DNA of 48,323 nucleotides from a virus, in the IMG/VR virus record IMGVR_UViG_3300025311_000373, positions 1 to 48,323 of that record. One strand, given 5' to 3'. A program made the position numbers and the translations under genes. Below the pieces are notes generated by a model, which saw only the letters and a list, made by a program, of their open reading frames with translations, had not been told where the DNA came from and did no database searches. This document shows positions 7,872 to 48,237 of this stretch, in pieces (position 1 is the first letter of the stretch; every line of letters starts with the position of its first letter).

Positions 7872-8458
7872 GTTGGTATCGGAACTCCACTTTGTCCTGC
7901 GCCTGGCGTTACCCCGTCGTGCGGGTGTTCCACTAGACTGATGTCGGCTGCAATCACATCTTCAGTTGCAGTGATTGTTCCATCTACATTGAAAGCGCCG
8001 GCATGGTTCCACGTGATAGCAGCCGAGGTGATGGTTCCGTCGCCATTGAGGGTGACGGAAGCGCCATTGGCATCAGAAAACGTCGCCTTGCCATCGTTCA
8101 GCAGCTTGAAGAATGCACCGCTTTCATGCACCAGCCACAGTTCACCGCTTGGAACAGCAAGCGGCCGGTCCTGATCATTGAAGAAGCGACCGCAGATGAA
8201 TCCGGCTTCGTTGCCATCATCCTGAAACTGGACTTCAACCATGTCGCCAGATGTTGGAGGGCAGAAAATGCCCCATCCGTTCCCGCTCCATGCCGACGTG
8301 ACAGGAAGCCATCCGGTCTCCTGCCCACTGGGCGACATCACCTTCGCGCTGTAGGCATTCGGATCGTAGCTTGTGACGGTGCAAATCGTCGTTTTCGCCT
8401 GTTCTTGCGTTGACATCTGTGCAAGCTGGCGCATCAGGTTTTGCTGTCCGTTCATCAT
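7868..8458 (-). CDS. Baseplate spike protein (gpV / Mu gp45-like)
   Basis: 196 aa. Residues about 24-100 form an OB-fold-like domain (TVTSYDPNAYSAKVM, PPTSGDMVEVQFQDDG). A repetitive beta region follows (GKATFSDANGASVTLNGDGTI), suited to a triple-stranded helix. The tail has HPHDGVTPGAG, the motif found near the tips of such spikes. The spike punctures the outer membrane on contraction. Overlaps both neighbours by four bases. Confidence 0.88.
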   Translation of the reverse strand: MMNGQQNLMRQLAQMSTQEQAKTTICTVTSYDPNAYSAKVMSPSGQETGWLPVTSAWSGNGWGIFCPPTSGDMVEVQFQDDGNEAGFICGRFFNDQDRPLAVPSGELWLVHESGAFFKLLNDGKATFSDANGASVTLNGDGTITSAAITWNHAGAFNVDGTITATEDVIAADISLVEHPHDGVTPGAGQSGVPIPT

Positions 8459-9579
8459 GATGGATTGTTCGGTGTTTGGTTCTTGCCTTCGACGTGCATC
8501 TTGAAACCGTGATCGGAAAAATCGTACATGCGCGTGATCGTTGACGCGTAATAAGGTTGATCTAACACCGTTCCTGTGCCCTCCACCTTAATAAGGTTTT
8601 GCGCTGTCAATAAGATGTCGCCAGGCATTTCAGCATGCATGTTCATTTCATGCCGGCTCAACTCTTCCAAAATCGCCTGCGCGCGGCGCTTTGCCTGGTC
8701 GGGGGTCAGATTCGGCAGGTTGTAGACATATTCCTGCACCTCGCTGAATTTCGTCGCTTTGCTTGTCGTTTTGTTATAAACCCTGGTCCGCTGGGCCGTT
8801 TCCTCGACCTTTTGCTTTGTCTTCTGATCAAACGAAATAATCCGAACCTTTAGATCCTTAGCGATCGACAAATTGCGCGTGAATTTCAATTTGGTTGCAT
8901 TGATGATCGGGTAGCCTCGATCGTCAGTTGGCTTCTGCCGACGGATGACATAGGGGTCTGAATCCGGTGCCGTACGTGGCTCGAAATGCAGTTCACTTCC
9001 CTTGACATAAACTTGATAGCGTTCGATCTGTGCAAGCTTGGTGACGATGTCCCAGTAGGTCGAGTCCGATGCGATGAGCTTGTGGAAGATTTGGTAATAC
9101 GATCCAACAGGCTTTTGCGTTGGCGTCACAATCGGAGTCAAGCCACGCTCGATCGCTATCTGCGTCACCACGCCTGATGCGGTCAACTCACCAACAAACG
9201 AAATCGATCGCTTGTAGTCGATTAATTTTGACGTCAGATCACGCCCAGATAAAATTAGCACGTCGTCGATCTCGTCAAACTCGATGTCGTCAACATACCC
9301 GACGAGGAAGCTGGTCAGCTCCTGTTTTGTAAAATTGTCCGGATCGGCAGGGAAGCCAATCAGAAACTCCATCTCCAGCTTTTCCTGCAAGGCCCACCAG
9401 TCAAGGCCTCGATCGACAGGCTGGCTGGCCAGTGCGAGTGTTAATCGGAACGTGTCCGCCTGAAAAAACGAATTGTTATCAACCTGAAACGACAATACCT
9501 GCGCGACCAGGTCGCCATTCGCATAGACCAGCGCGCGCGGCTGCTGGGCCGCGCTCTGTGGATTCGGTTGATTGATCAT
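8455..9579 (-). CDS. Baseplate hub protein (gpD / Mu gp44-like)
   Basis: 374 aa, the usual size for hub proteins. It contains LSGRDLTSKLIDYK, the conserved hub motif, and later YWDIVTKLAQIERYQVYVKG. The hub seats the spike at the end of the tail tube. The start overlaps the stop of the LysM protein gene by four bases. Confidence 0.88.
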   Translation of the reverse strand: MINQPNPQSAAQQPRALVYANGDLVAQVLSFQVDNNSFFQADTFRLTLALASQPVDRGLDWWALQEKLEMEFLIGFPADPDNFTKQELTSFLVGYVDDIEFDEIDDVLILSGRDLTSKLIDYKRSISFVGELTASGVVTQIAIERGLTPIVTPTQKPVGSYYQIFHKLIASDSTYWDIVTKLAQIERYQVYVKGSELHFEPRTAPDSDPYVIRRQKPTDDRGYPIINATKLKFTRNLSIAKDLKVRIISFDQKTKQKVEETAQRTRVYNKTTSKATKFSEVQEYVYNLPNLTPDQAKRRAQAILEELSRHEMNMHAEMPGDILLTAQNLIKVEGTGTVLDQPYYASTITRMYDFSDHGFKMHVEGKNQTPNNPS

Positions 9580-10538
9580 TGAGGAATGACGCCGCCATTA
9601 CTTTGCGGATTGTTCGGAATTATCAGATTTGTGATGGAAGAGATGGTCGTCTCCGTCAACTTGTTCGCCTGAGCAATGGCACTCCATAGCGACGGATCAC
9701 CATACTCACGCGCCGCCACGTCAAAAAGCGTTCCACCGCCAACAGTCACGGTTCTGACATTTGGCCCGGCGCCGATCAGGTTAAGATTTGTTTGAATCCG
9801 GCTGGCAACAGACCGCAGTTGGTAGAGCTTTGAAGATTGGGAGAATGCGGTTACTTGTTCAATCAATCCAGACGCCTGCTGTGCGATCGGGTTATTCGGC
9901 AAAACCCCACCCATTGTTGTTACTGAATTGATTGTATTCGCCACCGTACCAATCATCGTATCAACGCGTTGCATCACTGCGGACACCGGTGCCAACACGC
10001 CATTGATGGTTTCCTGAGTGGTTTTCGCAAAATCGGATACGGCCGTGATCGCGTTGTCCATGGTCGACAGCAACCCGGACAGCGTGTCATCCTCAATCTC
10101 GCCTCCCAGAGCCAAAGCGGTGGCCAAATCCTCTGCGACTGCAGGATTGAACGCGACCGGTGGGAAAGACGTCTGCGGCTGTGTGTTGTCCTGCACCACT
10201 TCGAGTTCGATCGTGTACGACACACGATAAAACCGCTCGACCGTGAAGATGAAACTGCGAATAACGACGTTGTAGTCAAATTCGAAGAATGTCAGCCTCA
10301 CAGATTTGCCGCGGACGCGCATCAAATCGAGATAGCGGGCGCGCTCGAGTGAATTGCCGCCAGTGAACAGCCCGGACCAAGCAATAGGCGCGTCGTCCCG
10401 CCCCATCGCCTGGACAACCTTTGCCCCGCCCGGAAACCGGTGAATGACCAGCGCTTGAGCGCCACCCAGCGGGATGCGCTCAGGGATCTCCTGTTCCTCA
10501 AAAAGGAAGTCGCCAAGAAACAGAAAGGTATCAGCCAT
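9576..10538 (-). CDS. Baseplate/tail protein with C-terminal LysM domain
   Basis: 320 aa. The N-terminal domain resembles phage tail proteins that precede the hub (LGGAQALVIHRFPGG, ERARYLDLMRVRGK). A low-complexity helical middle follows. The C-terminus (TLFDVAAREYGDPSLWSAIA ... LIIP) is a LysM module like that of T4 gp53 or P2 gpX. Such proteins connect the hub and wedge or contact murein. Confidence 0.8.
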   Translation of the reverse strand: MADTFLFLGDFLFEEQEIPERIPLGGAQALVIHRFPGGAKVVQAMGRDDAPIAWSGLFTGGNSLERARYLDLMRVRGKSVRLTFFEFDYNVVIRSFIFTVERFYRVSYTIELEVVQDNTQPQTSFPPVAFNPAVAEDLATALALGGEIEDDTLSGLLSTMDNAITAVSDFAKTTQETINGVLAPVSAVMQRVDTMIGTVANTINSVTTMGGVLPNNPIAQQASGLIEQVTAFSQSSKLYQLRSVASRIQTNLNLIGAGPNVRTVTVGGGTLFDVAAREYGDPSLWSAIAQANKLTETTISSITNLIIPNNPQSNGGVIPQ

Positions 10539-10540
10539 GA

Positions 10541-12442
10541 TTAGAGCCCAGAAAATCCGGAGCCGAGAGCTCGCATGTTCATTGATGGATCGAAAACGCT
10601 CATACCGGATGGTGGACGCGCCATGGCTTTTTCTTGATGCTTGCTGACGATTTGACCTACCTTCTGTCCATCAAGAAAGACATCCCCTTGCTTACCGCCG
10701 GCAGCCTCTTTTACGGGAGGCGGGACATAGTCTGGTCTTTGCCGCGCGTAGTAACCGTGTGGATTTTCTTTCAAGGAGACCTTCGGGCCAAAACCGGTTG
10801 AGTTTTCCGGCGGTTTCCATTCAGGCAGGTTCCAGCCCATTGCCTTAGATCGCGCCAAGGCATCGGGTGTCAGCTTCACGCCGCCATCGGTTTTATGGCC
10901 ATCTATCTCACCTTGGCTCATCGGCCTAAAGGCATACGCTGCTGCCAGGAGAGTGCCGAGAGCAAGCACGACTAATCCAACAGGCCCCAGCAGTGCGGTT
11001 AGAGCAGCACCCACCATCGGCAATCCGCCGACGCCGCCCATAACGCCAATTGCAAGGGAGAGACCTTTAAATCCAGCGATGAGCAACAAGAGCGTACCGC
11101 CAAAGGCCATTGCGCTCGCCAACGCCACAAATCCCAACGCCATTGCTTTGGTTATGCCTGGATTCATCCTTGCAAACTGTGTGAATGTTTGCAGCGCCGA
11201 CGAAAGCCCATCGACCATCTTGATCGCCAGCGGTAAGATCGTTGTTCCCAGCGCATTGAGCGAGTTTTGCCACTTCGCACGCAAATCGCCTTCCCGGCCT
11301 GCCAGCGTGTTTTTGCTAGCGTTGATCGTGCCATCTACACCCATGGCGCCCTTGACCATCTCAAAGTCACGCATCGCCTGAAATTGTTGCGTGGTGAACG
11401 TCGCAGCCATATTTGAACCGGTGCGGTTCGACAGCAGGCTATTTGCAAATTTGATGACTTCAGAATCTGTTTTTGCGCCTGCCTTTTTGGCTGCCGGAAC
11501 AACGTATTCCATCAGCCAGGCGCCGGGATTTGTGCGCAATAGTTCTTCACCCTTGATGCTGGTGATTTGCGTGGTTTTGTATTCTTTGCCGCCAACGCTG
11601 CCATGCGTTACAGAACCGAGTTCAGCCAATCCGGCGCCGGCCAGCGCTGCCATGGTCTTTTTCGTCGTGCGACCGGCGATCAAGTTCTGGTACATGCTCA
11701 TCAGGGCCGTGCCGGTCGAATGCCCACCTTGTTCCTGAGCGATTGTGGCCAGCATCATGATGCCGTCATCACTCAGTCCCTTGAAAGCTGCGCCGCCCCG
11801 CTTCGCCATAGCTTCAAGGTCGCCAAACTTGAGCGCACCGCCGGATCCGGTAACCATTTTCTGCGACAGGTCGAGACCACGCATGAAATCTGCTTTGCTG
11901 TCAGTCAATCCGCGCATATCGTTGAAGCGCATGATCGACCGGACTGCGCCGGTGTCGAGTTTGCCAATCTTGCCGCTGAAGAGCGTTGAGTTGGCGGCGT
12001 TGAGCTCTGCTAATTTCGGTGCGACTGCCATGGCGGTATTGATGTCGCCGAACATGCCGACCGATTCCCGCAAGGTCTCCATCAGGTCTTTATTCGACGC
12101 GCCGAAGGCCTTTGTGCCAAGTGCAAATGAATTGGCCTGGCGATTCACGACATCGCCCAAGTTCAGCGTCTTGAATCGCGCAAACGCAGTTTCGTAGTCC
12201 TTTGCTGCATTCAGCGGGCCCTTCATCAGCGCCAAACCACCAAATCCGACAGCAGCCAACCCACCACCTACGAGACCAAGGCGCTTGATGTCGAGTAGCT
12301 TGCGCTCCAGCAGCGTGGCGCTGGCATTTGCACCAATAAAACTTCTATTGACGCCGCCCAATTGTGAGGTAATCGCGACTAAGGCGGTGCTGACGTGATT
12401 TACGAGCGTAAGACGGACTGCGACCTTATATGCATCCCACAT
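10541..12442 (-). CDS. Tail tape measure protein
   Basis: 633 aa. The N-terminal region is helical with an A/G-rich hydrophobic segment near residues 56-76. The middle shows the TP901-type tape measure pattern (DYETAFARFKTL, LMETLRESVGMFG, ALKFGDLEAMAKRGGAAFKG). A central membrane-like region lies near 430-500 (ALGFVALASAMAFGGTLLLL and a second). It sets tail length and enters the host envelope at injection. Placed between the chaperone/tube genes and the baseplate genes. Confidence 0.92.
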   Translation of the reverse strand: MWDAYKVAVRLTLVNHVSTALVAITSQLGGVNRSFIGANASATLLERKLLDIKRLGLVGGGLAAVGFGGLALMKGPLNAAKDYETAFARFKTLNLGDVVNRQANSFALGTKAFGASNKDLMETLRESVGMFGDINTAMAVAPKLAELNAANSTLFSGKIGKLDTGAVRSIMRFNDMRGLTDSKADFMRGLDLSQKMVTGSGGALKFGDLEAMAKRGGAAFKGLSDDGIMMLATIAQEQGGHSTGTALMSMYQNLIAGRTTKKTMAALAGAGLAELGSVTHGSVGGKEYKTTQITSIKGEELLRTNPGAWLMEYVVPAAKKAGAKTDSEVIKFANSLLSNRTGSNMAATFTTQQFQAMRDFEMVKGAMGVDGTINASKNTLAGREGDLRAKWQNSLNALGTTILPLAIKMVDGLSSALQTFTQFARMNPGITKAMALGFVALASAMAFGGTLLLLIAGFKGLSLAIGVMGGVGGLPMVGAALTALLGPVGLVVLALGTLLAAAYAFRPMSQGEIDGHKTDGGVKLTPDALARSKAMGWNLPEWKPPENSTGFGPKVSLKENPHGYYARQRPDYVPPPVKEAAGGKQGDVFLDGQKVGQIVSKHQEKAMARPPSGMSVFDPSMNMRALGSGFSGL

Positions 12443-36366: not shown

Positions 36367-36435
36367 GGCGCACCTAATGTTTAAAGCAAGGAATTTTTAG
36401 GCTGCCCTTACTATAAAAATATTAGGATTGCCTAA
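36364..36435. promoter_or_regulatory. Operator cluster 1: three TTAGG-N4-CCTAA sites
   Basis: Sites at 36364-36377 (TTAGGCGCACCTAA), 36397-36410 (TTAGGCTGCCCTTA, degenerate right half) and 36422-36435 (TTAGGATTGCCTAA). The third overlaps the first base of the repressor start codon, suggesting autoregulation. AT-rich promoter elements lie between. Confidence 0.85.
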
Positions 36436-37268
36436 TGGATTGGAAAAAACGACTTACTAAAGCTCGCCTTGATGCGGGCTACAAAAGGAAAAGCCACTTT
36501 GCTAATGCTGTGGGCGTGAGTGCACCCACGGTGACTGATTGGGAAAAGGCGGTTGAAGACGGTGGCATTGACAAGCTCCGAGCGGAAAATCTTGTGAAAA
36601 TTTGTCATATTCTAAATATCAATAGCGATTGGCTTTTAGATGGTGTCGGACCGCAAAACCGCTCTGGATTTGGGACTGCAACCCCTCGATTAAAAGCGAT
36701 TCTCGGTGTCTCGGACGAAGATCTTGCGGAGCTTGAAAGCCTTCAAGGTTTGCCTGCAATAGACTCAGACAGGCGCCATGAACACAGGCGTGCGCACGAT
36801 CTTGAGCTTGTCGCTCCGCAAGGTTCCGATGAGGTGATGATTCCTCAATACAATGCTGGCGGCGCGATGGGTAATGGCTTAGTCTTGGATGGGCTGGCAG
36901 GAATTATTAAGAGTTGGCGCGTCGATCTCGAGTGGCTACGCCTGAACGTGAGGAATCATACGGGCGTGAAAAATCTTTGTATCGTGACTGGATTCGGCCC
37001 GTCCATGCGACCGATGTTTAATCCTGGCGACCCGCTGTTACTTGACAAGGGCATCACGACGTTTGATCACGAAGACGCCATCTATTTTTTCCGGGTCGGT
37101 AACTATGGCTACATCAAAACGGTGCAAAGAATCCCCACGCAAGACGGCGGAATTATTTACCGGGCCAAATCTAAGAACCCAGACTATGATCCATTCGACA
37201 TCACCAGAGAAATGGATTTAGAAGTTTTCGGCAAGATATTGACTGTGTGGAAGAGTGAACAGTTTTAG
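36435..37268 (+). CDS. CI-like repressor with LexA/S24 peptidase domain
   Basis: 277 aa. N-terminal HTH (residues about 19-40: KSHFANAVGVSAPTVTDWEK). C-terminal S24 domain with Ser190 in TGFGPSMRPMF and Lys228 in YGYIKTVQR, the self-cleavage dyad. A likely Ala-Gly cleavage bond lies at 141-142 (YNAGGAMG). It keeps the prophage silent and is destroyed after RecA activation. AGGA lies in the third operator as ribosome site. Confidence 0.93.
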   Translation: MDWKKRLTKARLDAGYKRKSHFANAVGVSAPTVTDWEKAVEDGGIDKLRAENLVKICHILNINSDWLLDGVGPQNRSGFGTATPRLKAILGVSDEDLAELESLQGLPAIDSDRRHEHRRAHDLELVAPQGSDEVMIPQYNAGGAMGNGLVLDGLAGIIKSWRVDLEWLRLNVRNHTGVKNLCIVTGFGPSMRPMFNPGDPLLLDKGITTFDHEDAIYFFRVGNYGYIKTVQRIPTQDGGIIYRAKSKNPDYDPFDITREMDLEVFGKILTVWKSEQF

Positions 37269-43020: not shown

Positions 43021-43827
43021 TTGTTCAGCCTAAACAAAGAATCGTTGCGACTTGCCGATGTGAACCCTCGGAAAGAAATCCACGGTGATGAAAAGGTTCT
43101 CGCCGTCGATCTGAAGCTGGAATTCGAGACATCGAATGCTGTGCTGTTGAAATTCTCGCCAACGCTACGGGATGCGCTTTACACGCAGGATCCGGGCGCA
43201 ACCATCGACATGATCGATCCAAGCCACGCACCGACCCTGCGCAATCCGCAGATGGGCGAAATCAAGTGGGCGCTGGAAATGCCGTTCGTGCGCTTCAGCG
43301 TGTTTGTCGATGGTTCGAACGATGAAGACATCGCTTTCATCGCTGCCAAGTGCAATAACTTCCGGTTCACATGCAAGGAAGGCGGCACGGTCATCGTCAC
43401 TTGCCGCGTGCAGAAATCCGAACCGCTGGAAGTCGATGTCACGAAGCTGCTGTTCTTGATGGACAAACAGATCAAGGTCAGTCTGGAAGCCGAGGATGAG
43501 CCGGAAGACTACGGCGACGGTGAAGAAGGAAAGGCTGAATTCCAGCAAGGCGAAGTAGATCTGCTGACCAGTTCCCAGGCAGGCGATGAGAACTCCGACA
43601 CCGGGCCAGCATCCGAAACCGAATCGGCGGACCAATACGACGCGCTCTACGCCAAGGCCGTCGCATTCGTGCGCGAGCTCAATAAGGCATCCATATCGAT
43701 CGTCAAGCGCGAACTGAAGATCGATGCGCTGGTTGCGACACGCATCCTCGATCAAATGGAAGAGGACGGCATTGTCGGTCCTGCCGCCGGCAATGGCTTG
43801 CGGGATGTGATCGCCGTACCTGCTTAA
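43021..43827 (+). CDS. Protein with C-terminal FtsK-gamma-like winged helix
   Basis: 268 aa from a TTG preceded by CAGGAGAG. The N-terminal part (1-150) is a beta-rich domain of unknown family; an acidic linker follows (about 155-205). The C-terminal 60 residues (ALYAKAVAFVREL, ASISIVKRELKIDALVATRI, LDQMEEDGIVGPAAGNGLRDV) match the FtsK gamma winged helix, which in FtsK reads KOPS sites and contacts XerD. A phage copy could bind DNA or compete with host FtsK. Confidence 0.75.
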   Translation: MFSLNKESLRLADVNPRKEIHGDEKVLAVDLKLEFETSNAVLLKFSPTLRDALYTQDPGATIDMIDPSHAPTLRNPQMGEIKWALEMPFVRFSVFVDGSNDEDIAFIAAKCNNFRFTCKEGGTVIVTCRVQKSEPLEVDVTKLLFLMDKQIKVSLEAEDEPEDYGDGEEGKAEFQQGEVDLLTSSQAGDENSDTGPASETESADQYDALYAKAVAFVRELNKASISIVKRELKIDALVATRILDQMEEDGIVGPAAGNGLRDVIAVPA

Positions 43828-43835
43828 CGGTCAAT

Positions 43836-43891
43836 GGAGCCGCCGCCGGAGAAAAGTCCCTCCCTGAGCGAAGTACCTGGCGGACGGCTCC
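43836..43891 (+). promoter_or_regulatory. Long hairpin upstream of the DGR cassette
   Basis: GGAGCCGCCGCC pairs with GGCGGaCGGCTCC (one bulged A) around a 31-base loop. It follows the FtsK-gamma-like gene and precedes the first variable protein; the short T run after it is weak, so it may be structural rather than a terminator. Confidence 0.5.
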
Positions 43892-43935
43892 GCCCTTTCA
43901 ATAATTATTCAGAAGCAAAACAACCAAGGAAAATA

Positions 43936-44547
43936 ATGAAATCCTCCATTCAAGAAATCACAGCGATCCTCGGAACCTCGATGGCCGGCGGCTTCTACGC
44001 TGGCCGCGTGAAAATCGGCGAACAGGTATTCGCACTGATCGTCGCCCCCAAAGCTGATGGCGAGCATGCAGACATAGTCTGGAATGATTCCCGGGAAACT
44101 GTTGATGGCGCGCTGTCTTACAACGATGGCCTGGCGAATACCCATGCGATGGCTGCAGCTGGAAGCAAACTCGCGCAATGGTCACTGGACCTGCACATTG
44201 CCGGACATGACGACTGGTACCTGCCATCGCAGGACGAACTCGAAATCCTCTATCGAAACCTGAAGCCAACCGCCGAAGAAAATTATCTTTATGCGCGCTC
44301 TGGCATCAATGTGTCAGCGGTTCCACCGACTTATCCCTACACCAGTGAATTGCCTGCGCAGACTGCCGCAGAGGTGTTTCAGGCTGACGCAGTAGAAGCA
44401 TTCGATCCGGCTTGGTATTGGAGCTCAACGCAGCACGCAGCCGACTCTGGTTGTGCCTGGTGTCAGGACTTCGACGACGGCGACCAGTACGGCAACGGCA
44501 AGAGCGCAGCGCTGCGCGCGCGCGCCGTCCGCAGATTAGCCATTTAG
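43936..44547 (+). CDS. DGR variable protein 1, DUF1566-like C-type lectin fold
   Basis: 203 aa from the ATG after AAGGAAAATA. The C-terminal domain has the DUF1566/C-lectin pattern: DWYLPSQDELEILY, then AWYWSSTQHAADSG, and KSAALRARAVRRL at the end. The last 36 codons contain VR1. Selected residues at template-adenine codons include several Asp and Gly and two Cys. No signal peptide or membrane helix, so the protein is likely cytoplasmic or in the virion. Paralogous to VP2. Confidence 0.9.
   Translation: MKSSIQEITAILGTSMAGGFYAGRVKIGEQVFALIVAPKADGEHADIVWNDSRETVDGALSYNDGLANTHAMAAAGSKLAQWSLDLHIAGHDDWYLPSQDELEILYRNLKPTAEENYLYARSGINVSAVPPTYPYTSELPAQTAAEVFQADAVEAFDPAWYWSSTQHAADSGCAWCQDFDDGDQYGNGKSAALRARAVRRLAI
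44430..44536 (+). repeat. DGR variable repeat 1 (VR1)
   Basis: 107 bp aligning without gaps to the template repeat at 45591-45697. Of 14 differences, 13 fall at template adenines (12 A to G, 1 A to T); the other is a T to G at 44520 in the GC-rich end. Substituted template positions: 45604, 45611, 45614, 45623, 45628, 45634, 45637, 45643, 45649, 45652, 45653, 45658, 45659. Confidence 0.95.
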
Positions 44548-44579
44548 TCCTTTATCAATTTTCAGAGGAGTCCGCCCAC

Positions 44580-45044
44580 ATGACCACCATCACGCTTGAA
44601 TCGATCAAAACCGAGCACAACCGGCTGGCCGAAGTAATCGCAGCATTCGAAGTGCAGATCAAAGAAAAGCGTCTTTTCTCGCTGCCCGAAGCTGAAATCG
44701 ATCTGAACGACGGCGAACACTATGCCGGCATCATCATCGGGAAGGATGGTGCTTCCAGCCATCACCTGATCCTGCTGTCCGGTGAAGCCGAGGAAATCAC
44801 CTGGGCGAATGCCGTGGAATGGGCGGTCAAGGCTGGCGGTGAATTGCCGACGCGCCGTGAACAGGCGCTTCTGTACGCCAATCTGAAGGAACAATTCAAA
44901 CCAAATTGGTACTGGTCCTGCGAGCAGCACGCAGCCCACTCTGATTATGCCTGGTGTCAGTACTTCGACAACGGCTACCAGATCAACAGCTACAAGAGCG
45001 CAGCGCTGCGCGCTCGCGCCGTCCGCAGATTAATTATTTTGTAA
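44580..45044 (+). CDS. DGR variable protein 2, DUF1566-like
   Basis: 154 aa from the ATG after AGAGGAG. Short helical N-terminus (MTTITLESIKTEHNRLAEVI), then a reduced DUF1566 domain: GELPTRREQALLYANLKEQF, NWYWSCEQHAAHSDY, and KSAALRARAVRRLI. VR2 encodes the last variable segment. Shorter than VP1, no export signal. Next to VP1 with 32 bp between. Confidence 0.9.
   Translation: MTTITLESIKTEHNRLAEVIAAFEVQIKEKRLFSLPEAEIDLNDGEHYAGIIIGKDGASSHHLILLSGEAEEITWANAVEWAVKAGGELPTRREQALLYANLKEQFKPNWYWSCEQHAAHSDYAWCQYFDNGYQINSYKSAALRARAVRRLIIL
44924..45030 (+). repeat. DGR variable repeat 2 (VR2)
   Basis: 107 bp aligned without gaps to the template. All 8 differences are at template adenines: 4 A to T, 3 A to G, 1 A to C (45604, 45623, 45628, 45634, 45643, 45650, 45656, 45658). 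The GC-rich 3' end is identical to the template. Confidence 0.97.
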
Positions 45045-45062
45045 TTTAACTATTTCATCAGC

Positions 45063-45416
45063 ATGGCACTCCACACCAATCTGCCGATATATAAGGTCGC
45101 CTACGATCTTCTCGACGTTGTCACTGATTTAGTCAAGAACATGCCACGCAATTTCAAGGCATCGATTGGCGGAAAGATCAGTGAGGAATGCGTTGAGATT
45201 GTGGTGCTCATATTCCGCGCCAACAGCGCTCGGGATAAAGCGCCGCACTTGGGCGAACTGATCGAGCGCCTGCAGGTCGCCGAACTACTGCTGCGCCTCT
45301 CACGAGACAAGCGGATGATTTCGACCGGCCAGTATGCCAAAGCAATCGATCTGACCAATAGCGTCGGCAAGCAGGCGGGTGGATGGCGCCGTTCCGCACT
45401 TTCGTCTGCTTCATAA
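45063..45416 (+). CDS. avd: DGR accessory variability determinant (Avd)
   Basis: 117 aa, typical of Avd. Pattern LPIYKVAYDLLDVVTDLVKN, MPRNFKASIGGKISEECVEI and a GKQAGGWRR end match the four-helix Avd family. In known DGRs Avd forms a pentamer that binds RT and template RNA and is required for adenine-specific cDNA synthesis. It lies between VP2 and the template repeat, the usual order. Confidence 0.92.
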   Translation: MALHTNLPIYKVAYDLLDVVTDLVKNMPRNFKASIGGKISEECVEIVVLIFRANSARDKAPHLGELIERLQVAELLLRLSRDKRMISTGQYAKAIDLTNSVGKQAGGWRRSALSSAS

Positions 45417-45430
45417 GGGTCACGGCCACT

Positions 45431-46822
45431 ATGACTGAACGAACTTTTAATCTGGTTGTGCCGCTGGCTCACAAGGCCACCGACATGCGCATCGCAGATA
45501 CCTCTGGCAGTGTCCAGGTACGGTCTGGCGCAGTTTCCCCGTTGATCGGCTCCGGCCTTCGGCAGGGCGACGTAGATAGCACAACAGGACGCAGCACGCA
45601 GCCAACTCTGATTATGCCTGGTATCAGAACTTCAACAACGGCAACCAGAACAACAACAACAAGAGCGCAGCGCTGCGCGCTCGCGCCGTCCGCAGATCAA
45701 TCCGAGCGCCACCATGCTGATTTTTCTTTTCCTGATCTGGTCCAGGCTTACTTCGACTGCCGGAAAAGCAAACGCAATACAGAAACCGCCCTGGCTTTCG
45801 AGCAGAATCTAGAGCGTAATTTGTCGCGCCTGTATGACGAGCTGGCCGCCGGCAGTTATAGGCCGGGCAAGTCAATCTGTTTCGTGGTCACCAGACCGAA
45901 AGCCCGTGAAGTATGGGCAGCAGACTTCCGCGACCGGATCGTGCATCACCTGCTGTACAACCGTATCGCCCCGCGATTCTATTCCTCGTTTGTCGCCGAC
46001 AGCTGCGCGTGCATTCCTGGGCGCGGCACCCTTTACGCAGCGCGCCGACTGGAAGCCAAGATCCGCAGCATCACGCAGAACTGGACAAGACCGGCCTGGT
46101 ACCTGAAATGCGATCTGGCGAACTTCTTCGTCAGCATCGACAAGAATGTCCTGCGGGACCTGATCGCTGCGCGCGTGCAAGAACCATGGTGGCTTTGGCT
46201 TGCCGATGTGATCCTGTTCCACGATCCGCGCCAAGACTTCGAGTACCGCGGGAATGCATCCCTGCTGGAGCGCGTGCCGCCGCACAAGCGCCTGACCAAC
46301 CAGCCGGCACACCTTGGCCTGCCGATCGGCAATCTGTCGTCGCAGTTCTTCGCCAACGTCTACCTGGACGTGCTCGACCAGCATGCCAAGCACCGCATTG
46401 GCGCCCGGCATTACATCCGGTACGTCGATGATTTCATTTTGCTGCACGATTCGCCGCAGTGGCTCAATGCCGCGCATGCCGAGATCGATGCATTCCTGCC
46501 ACGCGTGCTGCATGCACGTCTGAACCCGAGCAAAACCATTTTGCAGCCAGTCGATCGCGGCGTCGATTTCGTCGGCCATGTGATCAAGCCATGGAATACC
46601 CGGTCGCGCCGACGGACAGTCGCACAAGCAGTGGGCAGGATTCTGTCCATGGATGCCGGCGACGTCTATGCATCGGCGAACAGCTATTTCGGATTGTTGG
46701 GCCAGTCGAATGCCAGTCATGCCGACCGTGCGCGCCTGGCGAATGCCGTGCTTCAGCGCGGACATTCGGTAAATCGGCAATTGACAAAATCATATAGAAA
46801 ACAATTAAGGGAGTTTGCATGA
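45431..46822 (+). CDS. DGR reverse transcriptase
   Basis: 463 aa if started at the ATG at 45431. The RT core begins about residue 100: FSFPDLVQAYFDCRKSKRN, CDLANFFVSIDKN, GLPIGNLSSQFFANVYLD and the catalytic YVDD at 331-334 (46421-46432), then the thumb. GLPIGN and the lack of a maturase domain fit DGR RTs. Start problem: the frame is open across the template repeat and no ATG/GTG follows it in frame before the core, so the N-terminal 90 residues (including a Thr-rich piece from the template) may be translated or a non-standard start used. Confidence 0.93.
   Translation: MTERTFNLVVPLAHKATDMRIADTSGSVQVRSGAVSPLIGSGLRQGDVDSTTGRSTQPTLIMPGIRTSTTATRTTTTRAQRCALAPSADQSERHHADFSFPDLVQAYFDCRKSKRNTETALAFEQNLERNLSRLYDELAAGSYRPGKSICFVVTRPKAREVWAADFRDRIVHHLLYNRIAPRFYSSFVADSCACIPGRGTLYAARRLEAKIRSITQNWTRPAWYLKCDLANFFVSIDKNVLRDLIAARVQEPWWLWLADVILFHDPRQDFEYRGNASLLERVPPHKRLTNQPAHLGLPIGNLSSQFFANVYLDVLDQHAKHRIGARHYIRYVDDFILLHDSPQWLNAAHAEIDAFLPRVLHARLNPSKTILQPVDRGVDFVGHVIKPWNTRSRRRTVAQAVGRILSMDAGDVYASANSYFGLLGQSNASHADRARLANAVLQRGHSVNRQLTKSYRKQLREFA
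45591..45697 (+). ncRNA. DGR template repeat (TR)
   Basis: 107-bp template between avd and the RT core, 32 adenines, with AAC codons in the variable register. It contains a stop-interrupted copy of the variable segment in its own frame (a stop at 45577 precedes it), so it is not coding for a variable protein. The RNA is reverse transcribed with adenine errors, and the cDNA replaces VR1 or VR2. Confidence 0.95.
45665..45678 (+). repeat. Perfect 14-bp palindrome in the template's GC-rich end
   Basis: GCGCAGCGCTGCGC reads identically on both strands. Identical copies lie in VR1 (44504-44517) and VR2 (44998-45011). GAGCGC...GCGCTC can form an alternative hairpin in TR and VR2; the T to G in VR1 breaks it. 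Confidence 0.85.
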
Positions 46823-48237
46823 AGCGAGATTTTTTAAGCCTGCCGCTTGACCTCGGCAACGAACTGAACATCGATAACTTTGCCGGGGGCGGCGGTGCAT
46901 CCGAGGGCATTGAACAGGCATTTGGCCGTCCGGTCGATGTAGCCATTAATCATGACGGCGAAGCGTTGGCCATGCATGCTGCCAATCACCCTCGAACTGC
47001 GCACTATCAAGAAGATGTGTTTGACATTCATCCCGGCTTCGTCACAGGCCAACGCCCGATCGGTCTTGCCTGGTTCAGCCCGGATTGCAAGCATCACTCC
47101 AAGGCCAAGGGCGGGAAACCGCGCGAGCAGAAGATTCGCGGCCTTGCGTGGGTTACGCTGAAATGGGGAACGTTTCAGATGCCGCGCGCGATCGCACTTG
47201 AGAACGTCGAAGAATTTCAGGATTGGGGGCCGCTGGATGACGCCGGGAAGCCCATTAAATCCGAGAAAGGCCGCACCTTCCGTGCCTTCATAGATGCACT
47301 CTCAACAGGATTGGCCAAAGATCATCCGGATATACCTGAAATTTATGATGCGCTCGGTGCCGACTTCCCAATGGGCCGGCTATACGCTGGACTGGGTTAC
47401 AAAGTCGAGCACCGGATTCTCAGAGCTTACAAATATGGCACGCCAACTATTCGCAAGCGTCTATACATTTTCGCGCGCCGCGATGGTTTGCCGATCGTCT
47501 GGCCATCGCCGACTCATGACAATCCAAAGTTGCCGGGATTCGCGAAAAGCGGTTTGTTGCCTTGGGCTACGGCCGCCGAATGCATCGATTGGTCGATCCC
47601 CTGCCCGTCAATTTTTACTCGCAAGCGGCCGCTGAAAGACGCGACGCTGCGCCGAATCGCCAAGGGCATCATGAAGTTTGTCGTTAATTCGGCTGATCCA
47701 TTTATCGTGAAGTTTCCCGAGAACAGCACCGGCCAGCAGATCGATGAACCGCTGCACACTGTCATGGCGGGCGCACCACGCTTCGGGCTTGTATCTCCCA
47801 CCCTGATGCATCTGACTCATCATGGCGCCGACCGTACAGCATCAGTCGATGCACCAATTGCAACCATTACCGGGGCACATCGTGGTGAACAGGCGCTGGT
47901 CATGGCGATGCTGGCCAAGCATTACACCGGAGTAGTCGGCACCAGCGTTAAAGTGCCTTTTGGCACCGTTACTACCAGTGACCACCATTCCGTAGTTACC
48001 GCTCAGCTTGTCGGCTGCGGCGGTCGTGCTGGGCAGTCTCGCCCGCGCGATGTGAGCGAGCCGACTGCTACGGTCACAAGTAAGGCGGACACAACGCTCG
48101 TGACATCGCACCTGGTCAAGTTACGCAATAACCAATTCGGCCAAGGAATGGACGAGCCGTTCCCGACATTGACGGCCGGCGGCGGACATGTTGGAGAGGT
48201 TCGCGCTTTCCTGATTACTCATAAGTCAGAAATATAG
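46819..48237 (+). CDS. C5-cytosine DNA methyltransferase, C-terminally short
   Basis: 472 aa. Motif I FAGGGGASEG (21-30), motif IV SPDCKHHSKAKGG with catalytic C90, motif VI LENVEEF (E128), motif VIII GTPTIRKRLYIFARR. The C-terminal part has P-T-V/I-T repeats (PLHTVMAG, PIATITGAH, PTATVTSK, PFPTLTAGG). No GNSV-like motif X or motif IX target region is seen before the stop, so it may be truncated or completed elsewhere. The ATG overlaps the RT stop (ATGA). Confidence 0.85.
   Translation: MKRDFLSLPLDLGNELNIDNFAGGGGASEGIEQAFGRPVDVAINHDGEALAMHAANHPRTAHYQEDVFDIHPGFVTGQRPIGLAWFSPDCKHHSKAKGGKPREQKIRGLAWVTLKWGTFQMPRAIALENVEEFQDWGPLDDAGKPIKSEKGRTFRAFIDALSTGLAKDHPDIPEIYDALGADFPMGRLYAGLGYKVEHRILRAYKYGTPTIRKRLYIFARRDGLPIVWPSPTHDNPKLPGFAKSGLLPWATAAECIDWSIPCPSIFTRKRPLKDATLRRIAKGIMKFVVNSADPFIVKFPENSTGQQIDEPLHTVMAGAPRFGLVSPTLMHLTHHGADRTASVDAPIATITGAHRGEQALVMAMLAKHYTGVVGTSVKVPFGTVTTSDHHSVVTAQLVGCGGRAGQSRPRDVSEPTATVTSKADTTLVTSHLVKLRNNQFGQGMDEPFPTLTAGGGHVGEVRAFLITHKSEI

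Follow-up and report, generated by a model that had tools for sequence, protein, structure and literature searches.

A two-target diversity-generating retroelement in a temperate phage and a probable long-range pairing between its RT-15 RNA and the 3' end of its template repeat

How the two ends of the template are set in a diversity-generating retroelement (DGR) is the question raised by one locus in a viral sequence of 48,323 nucleotides (IMG/VR record IMGVR_UViG_3300025311_000373; this whole stretch is referred to below as the window). The locus, at positions 43936 to 46822, is a complete DGR in a temperate phage, made up of two tandem Lcl_C target genes, avd, a template repeat (TR) and a gene for a reverse transcriptase (RT) with a YVDD motif; each target gene carries a variable repeat (VR). 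TR is directly preceded by the structured RNA RT-15, whose last base is the first base of TR (45591). The element looks functional, and it is quite probable, on comparative grounds, that one strand of RT-15 (a1) pairs with the 3' end of TR (a2), so that TR is looped between the closing helix of RT-15 (P1) and the a1:a2 helix. The comparisons that carry this reading are the DGR anatomy, the position of RT-15 before TR, the covariation of a1 with a2, and TR/VR identity that ends inside a2.

Table 1. Features of the DGR and its immediate neighbour in the window
Feature	Positions	Strand	Description
Target gene 1	43936..44547	+	203 aa, Lcl_C / C-type-lectin-like, VR1 at 3' end; Pfam Lcl_C 2e-14
VR1	44430..44536	+	13/14 differences to TR at template A
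Target gene 2	44580..45044	+	154 aa, helix plus lectin-like domain, VR2 at 3' end
VR2	44924..45030	+	8/8 differences to TR at template A
avd	45063..45416	+	Pfam bAvd 5e-15; PHROG 3206 (Avd) 5e-35
Open frame of RT	45383..46822	+	Enzyme core from about 45713
RT-15 structured RNA (RF03018)	45400..45591	+	5' leader of template; 173.8 bits vs gathering cut-off 82; full model 1-192
Putative a1	45447..45454	+	RT-15 strand (AAUCUG) predicted to pair with TR 3' end; covariation
P1 closing helix of RT-15, 5' strand	45456..45461	+	Mapped Rfam structure
P1 closing helix of RT-15, 3' strand	45579..45584	+	6 nt before TR
TR	45591..45697	+	A-specific match to both VRs
Putative a2	45693..45700	+	TR 3' end plus 3 flanking bases, predicted partner of a1; covariation
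Cytosine DNA methyltransferase	46819..48237		Start overlaps RT stop

The first-pass annotation of the window, which was made from the sequence alone, had claimed a gap-free alignment of both VRs to the template with nearly all differences at template adenines, and this alignment proved exact. VR1 differs from TR at 14 positions, 13 of them template adenines, and VR2 at eight, every one a template adenine; a T to G change in VR1 is the only non-adenine difference among the 22. With 32 adenines in the 107 bases of TR, the hypergeometric chance of at least 13 of 14 differences falling at adenines is 2.2e-7, and that of 8 of 8 is 3.2e-5. Codon positions 1 or 2 hold 21 of the 22 differences. The RT likewise appears sound: its YVDD catalytic motif is intact within an uninterrupted frame, and the target, avd and RT frames are all open. 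The RT matched Pfam RVT_1 (1.5e-14) and PHROG 1423 (RT; 1e-119), and its best sequence match in PDB was 8ub7 (3.8e-34), an entry named Reverse transcriptase that we take to be the BPP-1 enzyme. Avd gave no match in PDB, either by sequence or by profile. Together with the TR/VR alignment, the Pfam and PHROG gene calls thus uphold the earlier description of a complete DGR in which one template serves two paralogous targets: an adenine-specific TR/VR pair, a DGR-type RT with intact motif, Avd, and a VR in a C-type-lectin-like target are all present. The accompanying statement that Avd and RT flank the template was nearly right, but TR overlaps the RT frame and RT-15, absent from that annotation, precedes TR.

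RT-15 was the only Rfam RNA found in positions 43500-47000 up to E 0.1, and no Phage_DGR-type RNA was found between TR and RT. The same RNA occurs in a second DGR of this clade in the host genome (contig C29, locus L012, about 8250-10640), which comprises two VRs, Avd, RT-15, TR and RT, and in the phages Magia, Cruim01, Haboob and QDWS. A search of 294 genomes of the family gave matches above the cut-off in 12 of them (13 loci). At each of the 13, RT-15 is directly followed by a TR that has one or more VRs, and at 12 of them TR in turn is immediately followed by the RT core. At one locus (L186), RT-15 and a TR with two VRs are present and the RT core match begins about 1.15 kb after TR, perhaps owing to an insertion. 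The nine matches below the cut-off (L190-L198) all lack an RT of this clade in the surrounding stretch, and a class-wide search of 369 genomes, with strict filters and 6 candidates scored per genome, returned only the window's own genome. The one-line Rfam description of RT-15 makes no mention of DGRs.

Just before P1, RT-15 contains a conserved strand, AAUCUGG, which is unpaired in the Rfam model and complementary to CAGAU at the TR 3' end. The RT served as query for collecting relatives: the best 80 were taken of 119 matches in genomes, and likewise the best 80 of 348 matches in viral contigs. Together with the window, the locus on C29 and four phage records this gave 166 loci, or 151 after deduplication at 95% RT identity. 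For the helix, loci from four further scans were added; among the matches listed there were 461 loci, 304 at 97% RT identity, with a TR in 287 and both strands located in 286. The a1 and a2 anchors were placed by alignment and conserved motifs, without use of complementarity. Pair 7 is formed in 275 of the 286 loci (96%) versus 44% in shuffles, in the combinations UA (116), GC (106), CG (30), AU (11), UG (9) and GU (3), with 11 unpaired. Pair 6 reaches 59% (shuffles 51%), pair 8 81% (66%) and pair 9 60% (47%).

Changes were then followed in nearest-neighbour pairs of loci, 143 in all and none overlapping, with a median RT identity of 85%. Compensated two-sided changes numbered 3, 2, 2, 4, 14, 6 and 15 at positions 2, 4, 5, 6, 7, 8 and 9, where 0.02 to 1.9 were expected; there were none at positions 1 and 3. 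At position 7, 14 two-sided changes kept the pair (0.44 expected), five one-sided changes also kept it, and three broke it. Counted over 129 loci, 88.0% of cells were paired versus 78.0% in shuffles, and versions of the helix slid along the sequence reached at most 45.2%. The covariation score of a1:a2 at these loci was 0.262, versus 0.088 shuffled, a value attained by none of 500 shuffles and comparable to that of the established Rfam helix P1 (0.361). The folding probability of a1:a2 averaged 0.39 over the same 129 loci and exceeded 0.5 in 51.

The limits of TR/VR identity coincide with these RNA elements. On the 3' side, non-adenine agreement between TR and VR is 0.99-1.00 from 24 bases upstream down to C1, the first base of CAGAU (515 VRs), and in 496 of the 515 VRs the last base that is still identical falls within positions 1-7 of the segment. 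Where TR deviates from CAGAT, the VR shares its letters in only 3 of 136 comparisons; changes in a2 therefore follow RT-15 and not the VR. On the 5' side, identity starts about 6 nt after P1. From the limits on both sides, the shared stretch corresponds to the segment of RNA bounded by P1 and the a1:a2 helix. Within the 18 nt immediately upstream of C1, change at adenines is limited to 0-3%; the transfer of mutations therefore starts upstream of the point where homology ends. The T to G difference of VR1, at 44520, falls 12 bases before C1 of a2, in a region of almost complete TR/VR agreement.

Adenine-specific change is a general feature of the relatives. Among their 302 VRs, located by a scan that tolerates mismatches at A (and so favours adenine-biased repeats) followed by neutral extension, 3837 of 9457 template adenines were changed, versus 157 of 21667 other bases (C 55/10295, G 62/7200, T 40/4172). 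Two loci with identical RT cores (L154 and L155) differ in the proximal VR at 19 sites, all 19 at A, and at 39 of 3045 bases elsewhere; this comparison covers the proximal VR, the distal VR not being alignable. In another pair (L061 and L065), 14 of 14 and 17 of 18 changes in the two VR slots are at A, versus 8.8% difference elsewhere. Of the 22 pairs whose RTs are at least 99% identical, 19 had identical VRs where these could be aligned, and two more differed by one A. By these alignments the VRs of close relatives change on their own, and the system appears to be active in them. The first-pass annotation had proposed that both targets drift independently. Pairs of the L061/L065 type agree with this for the relatives; for the window's own genome the claim found no such footing, the VRs of viral contig L111 being identical to those of the window.

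In the looped arrangement favoured here, an error-prone complex of RT and Avd would copy a single TR transcript, making its errors at adenines, and the 3' ends of both lectin-like genes would be overwritten by these copies. RT-15 would close TR into a loop, P1 bounding its 5' end and the a1:a2 helix its 3' end. Beyond the comparisons, we infer that the a1:a2 helix would place the RT at the TR 3' end, with copying beginning at the helix edge, that the cDNA would be primed from the a1 strand (by a 2'-OH or a nick near G45454/G45455), and that copying would stop near P1. The extension of this arrangement to a broad phage DGR clade, with a circularly permuted retron-like template RNA, an AUCUG-G primer, and TR ends set by the RNA fold and not by a 3' spacer as in BPP-1, is advanced tentatively, as a real possibility that falls somewhat short of being favoured.

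Several observations weigh against the looped template. Pairs 1-5 are formed in 87-100% of the 286 loci and in 86-99% of shuffles; because both sides are so conserved, pairing there barely exceeds the shuffled level. One-sided changes that break a pair numbered 2, 1, 9, 8, 12, 31, 2, 18 and 25 at positions 1-9. In the window, the helix contains an A45449/C45698 mismatch (position 6) and has a folding probability of 0.02, folding preferring to pair UCUGG with ACCAGA inside TR. TR/VR identity ends gradually over positions 1-7 and not at one base, and the true start of the cDNA, or the crossover, could lie further upstream of C1. Lastly, no VR variation was seen in the window's genome: L111 is identical to the window over 4414 bases, both VRs included. 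This contig is perhaps from the same source as the window, and it is uninformative as a test of VR variation because its VRs are those of the window.

The pairing of RT-15 UCUGG with ACCAGA was also evaluated as a candidate across the relatives and was rejected, with 77.6% of cells paired versus 77.4% shuffled, near the shuffle level, and a covariation score of 0.058 versus 0.054 that was matched by 15 of 500 shuffles.

The looped template was compared with other readings of the locus. It might be an ordinary BPP-1-like DGR, with a functional RNA 3' of TR in the RT gene and RT-15 as a 5' regulatory or translation element. The structured RNA of BPP-1 (Phage_DGR) does sit 3' of TR, and TR of the window overlaps the RT frame, so that coding DNA could conceal a 3' element. 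However, past the initial 15 codons, a stretch that takes in the end of TR, the RT gene downstream of TR shows no drop in diversity at fourfold sites. RT-15 also covaries with the 3' end of TR, a link for which an element acting in translation alone would have no use; this reading seems unlikely. Still less probable is that the AAUCUG of RT-15 serves as a guide, pairing with the target at the VR 3' boundary and directing retrohoming. Both VRs of the window do pair with a1 over 8 bases (with one G-U in VR1), better than TR does, and VR flanks put in place of the TR flank exceed shuffles at position 7 (proximal 58% versus 46%, distal 71% versus 47%), which shared ancestry could also explain. The TR flank, however, pairs in 96% at position 7 and 81% at position 8, whereas VR flanks are at or below shuffles at position 8 (285 and 218 VRs). 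Judged by these comparisons, the better partner of a1 is the template and not the target.

The RT frame upstream of TR could instead be a real N-terminal extension, conserved as protein. It is open beyond the TR start in 139 of 158 loci, and the 150 bases before TR hold 51 stops in the RT frame versus 366 and 360 in the other frames (143 loci). Codon-position entropy upstream of TR is nevertheless equal at all three positions, without periodicity, a stop occurs in the RT frame within these 150 bases in 34 of the 143 loci, and the stretch is a known structured RNA. Because of the equal entropy and the stops, it is read here as RNA, and a protein extension is considered highly improbable. Many relatives have an in-frame ATG inside TR, and the RT of the window may possibly start there, for instance at ATG 45614. 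As for a decayed DGR that no longer diversifies, the non-adenine difference in VR1 and the identity of the L111 VRs would suit it; the open target, avd and RT frames, a VR2 free of non-adenine differences and the apparent activity of relatives speak against it, and decay is improbable.

The order target, avd, TR, RT and the adenine-specific change are shared with the DGR of BPP-1 (mtd-avd-TR-brt), whose Bbp7 is presumably Avd. BPP-1 has one annotated VR, and its structured RNA is situated between TR and brt (L199: TR 2235-2368, Phage_DGR 2373-2505). Unlike in BPP-1, the structured RNA of the window precedes TR, and about 15 bases separate the end of TR from the RT core. According to the accessible text of one study, the spacer after TR in BPP-1 recruits the RT and primes the cDNA (PMC12875486). 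Rfam RT-14 (Bacillus phage BalMu-1) is likewise a structured RNA beside a DGR TR and RT; it starts at the TR 3' end, on the same side as in BPP-1, whereas RT-15 is on the 5' side. The phages Magia (Burkholderia), Cruim01 and Haboob (Pseudomonas) and QDWS (Shewanella) belong to the same clade as the window, with RTs 62-66% identical, and share avd, RT-15, TR and two VRs with it, while hosts and neighbouring genes differ. The record of Magia names a possible DGR target and an Avd-like protein, and that of Cruim01 an RT-15 feature.

Retron RNA has the order a1, structured RNA, template, a2 and RT gene, which is the layout of RT-15 and TR, and its ends pair as a1 and a2. Such pairing of the ends of the template RNA is indicated by covariation in the relatives of the window. 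Unlike retrons, the element has an RT of the DGR kind and Avd, and its product would overwrite target genes. The best PHROG, Pfam and PDB matches of the RT were DGR and general RTs, not the retron family; one weak PDB match was named retron-type RT (E 2e-4). In the accessible part of PMC8867640, DGR and retron RNAs are described separately. A literature search, beyond whose reach the key papers lay, found no description of an RT-15/TR pairing or of a retron-like DGR RNA. If TR is indeed looped from the 5' side throughout a widespread clade, the rule that sets template ends would differ between DGRs, Rfam RT-15 would gain a definite role, and the RNA layouts of DGRs and retrons would be linked.

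The presence of two targets, which had been presented as a less common trait, turned out to be the rule in this DGR clade. At least two VRs were found in 111 of the 116 deduplicated relatives with at least 7 kb of upstream sequence: two VRs in 82, three in 27, four in 2, one in 1 and none in 4. Avd is present in 148 of the 151 deduplicated loci. Some relatives (L051, L032 and others) have DGRs with four or more VRs. Multi-VR DGRs have also long been published; as far as the accessible texts of the two surveys go, they make up about one seventh of the DGRs in DiGReF 2012 (PMC3521204) and 271 of 948 in a 2019 survey (PMC6642488). Overlap of TR with an end of the RT frame defines DiGReF group 3, and the multi-VR and group 3 DGRs have two VRs and the TR/RT overlap as in the window, without RNA structure or RT-15 in the accessible text (PMC3521204). 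As a DGR, the element therefore belongs to a known kind, with both its two-target cassette and its TR/RT overlap already published. Perfect hairpins (stem at least 6 bp) were observed within 60 nt after 71 of 272 VRs of relatives, versus 15 of 272 in shuffled sequence, the count covering VRs of the two slots nearest avd; they resemble the stem-loop after the BPP-1 VR.

AlphaFold models of targets 1 and 2 had pLDDT values of 94 and 93. The C-terminal domain of Legionella Lcl was the top Foldseek match of target 2 in PDB (E 1.7e-5), followed by other C-type lectins, and the second match of target 1 (E 7.5e-4), for which the result was modest, with 2 matches at E <= 0.001 and the rest weak. In BFVD, target 1 resembled DUF1566 proteins and parts of tail fibre or collagen-repeat proteins. 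The Pfam Lcl_C match of target 2 (7e-6) is below the curated cut-off. A relationship of target 1 to protoglobins, raised by PDB sequence matches (best E 0.007), was dismissed as spurious: these matches did not recur in the profile search, in which Legionella chain 8q4e (HbP1) alone appeared.

When the TR region was scanned against the entire window, it gave no VRs beyond VR1 and VR2. The host genome comprises 5.4 Mb in 151 contigs, and a search of it with TR returned, besides TR, VR1 and VR2, only shorter matches, two on C29 and one of 23 bases on contig C57; the TR of the C29 DGR shares 54 bases with that of the window at 89%. A third RT-like gene, a frame of 275 aa on contig C96 (L001), may be a fragment of a group II intron maturase. 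The DGR lies in the early region of the prophage, where a repressor gene (36435-37268) and a RecE-like exonuclease gene are followed by the DGR and then by the cytosine methyltransferase gene. The contractile-tail structural module, which includes a tail fibre gene, is on the strand opposite to the DGR, and the DGR targets are for this reason placed outside the tail module. Phages Cruim01, Haboob and QDWS likewise have methyltransferase genes downstream of their DGRs.

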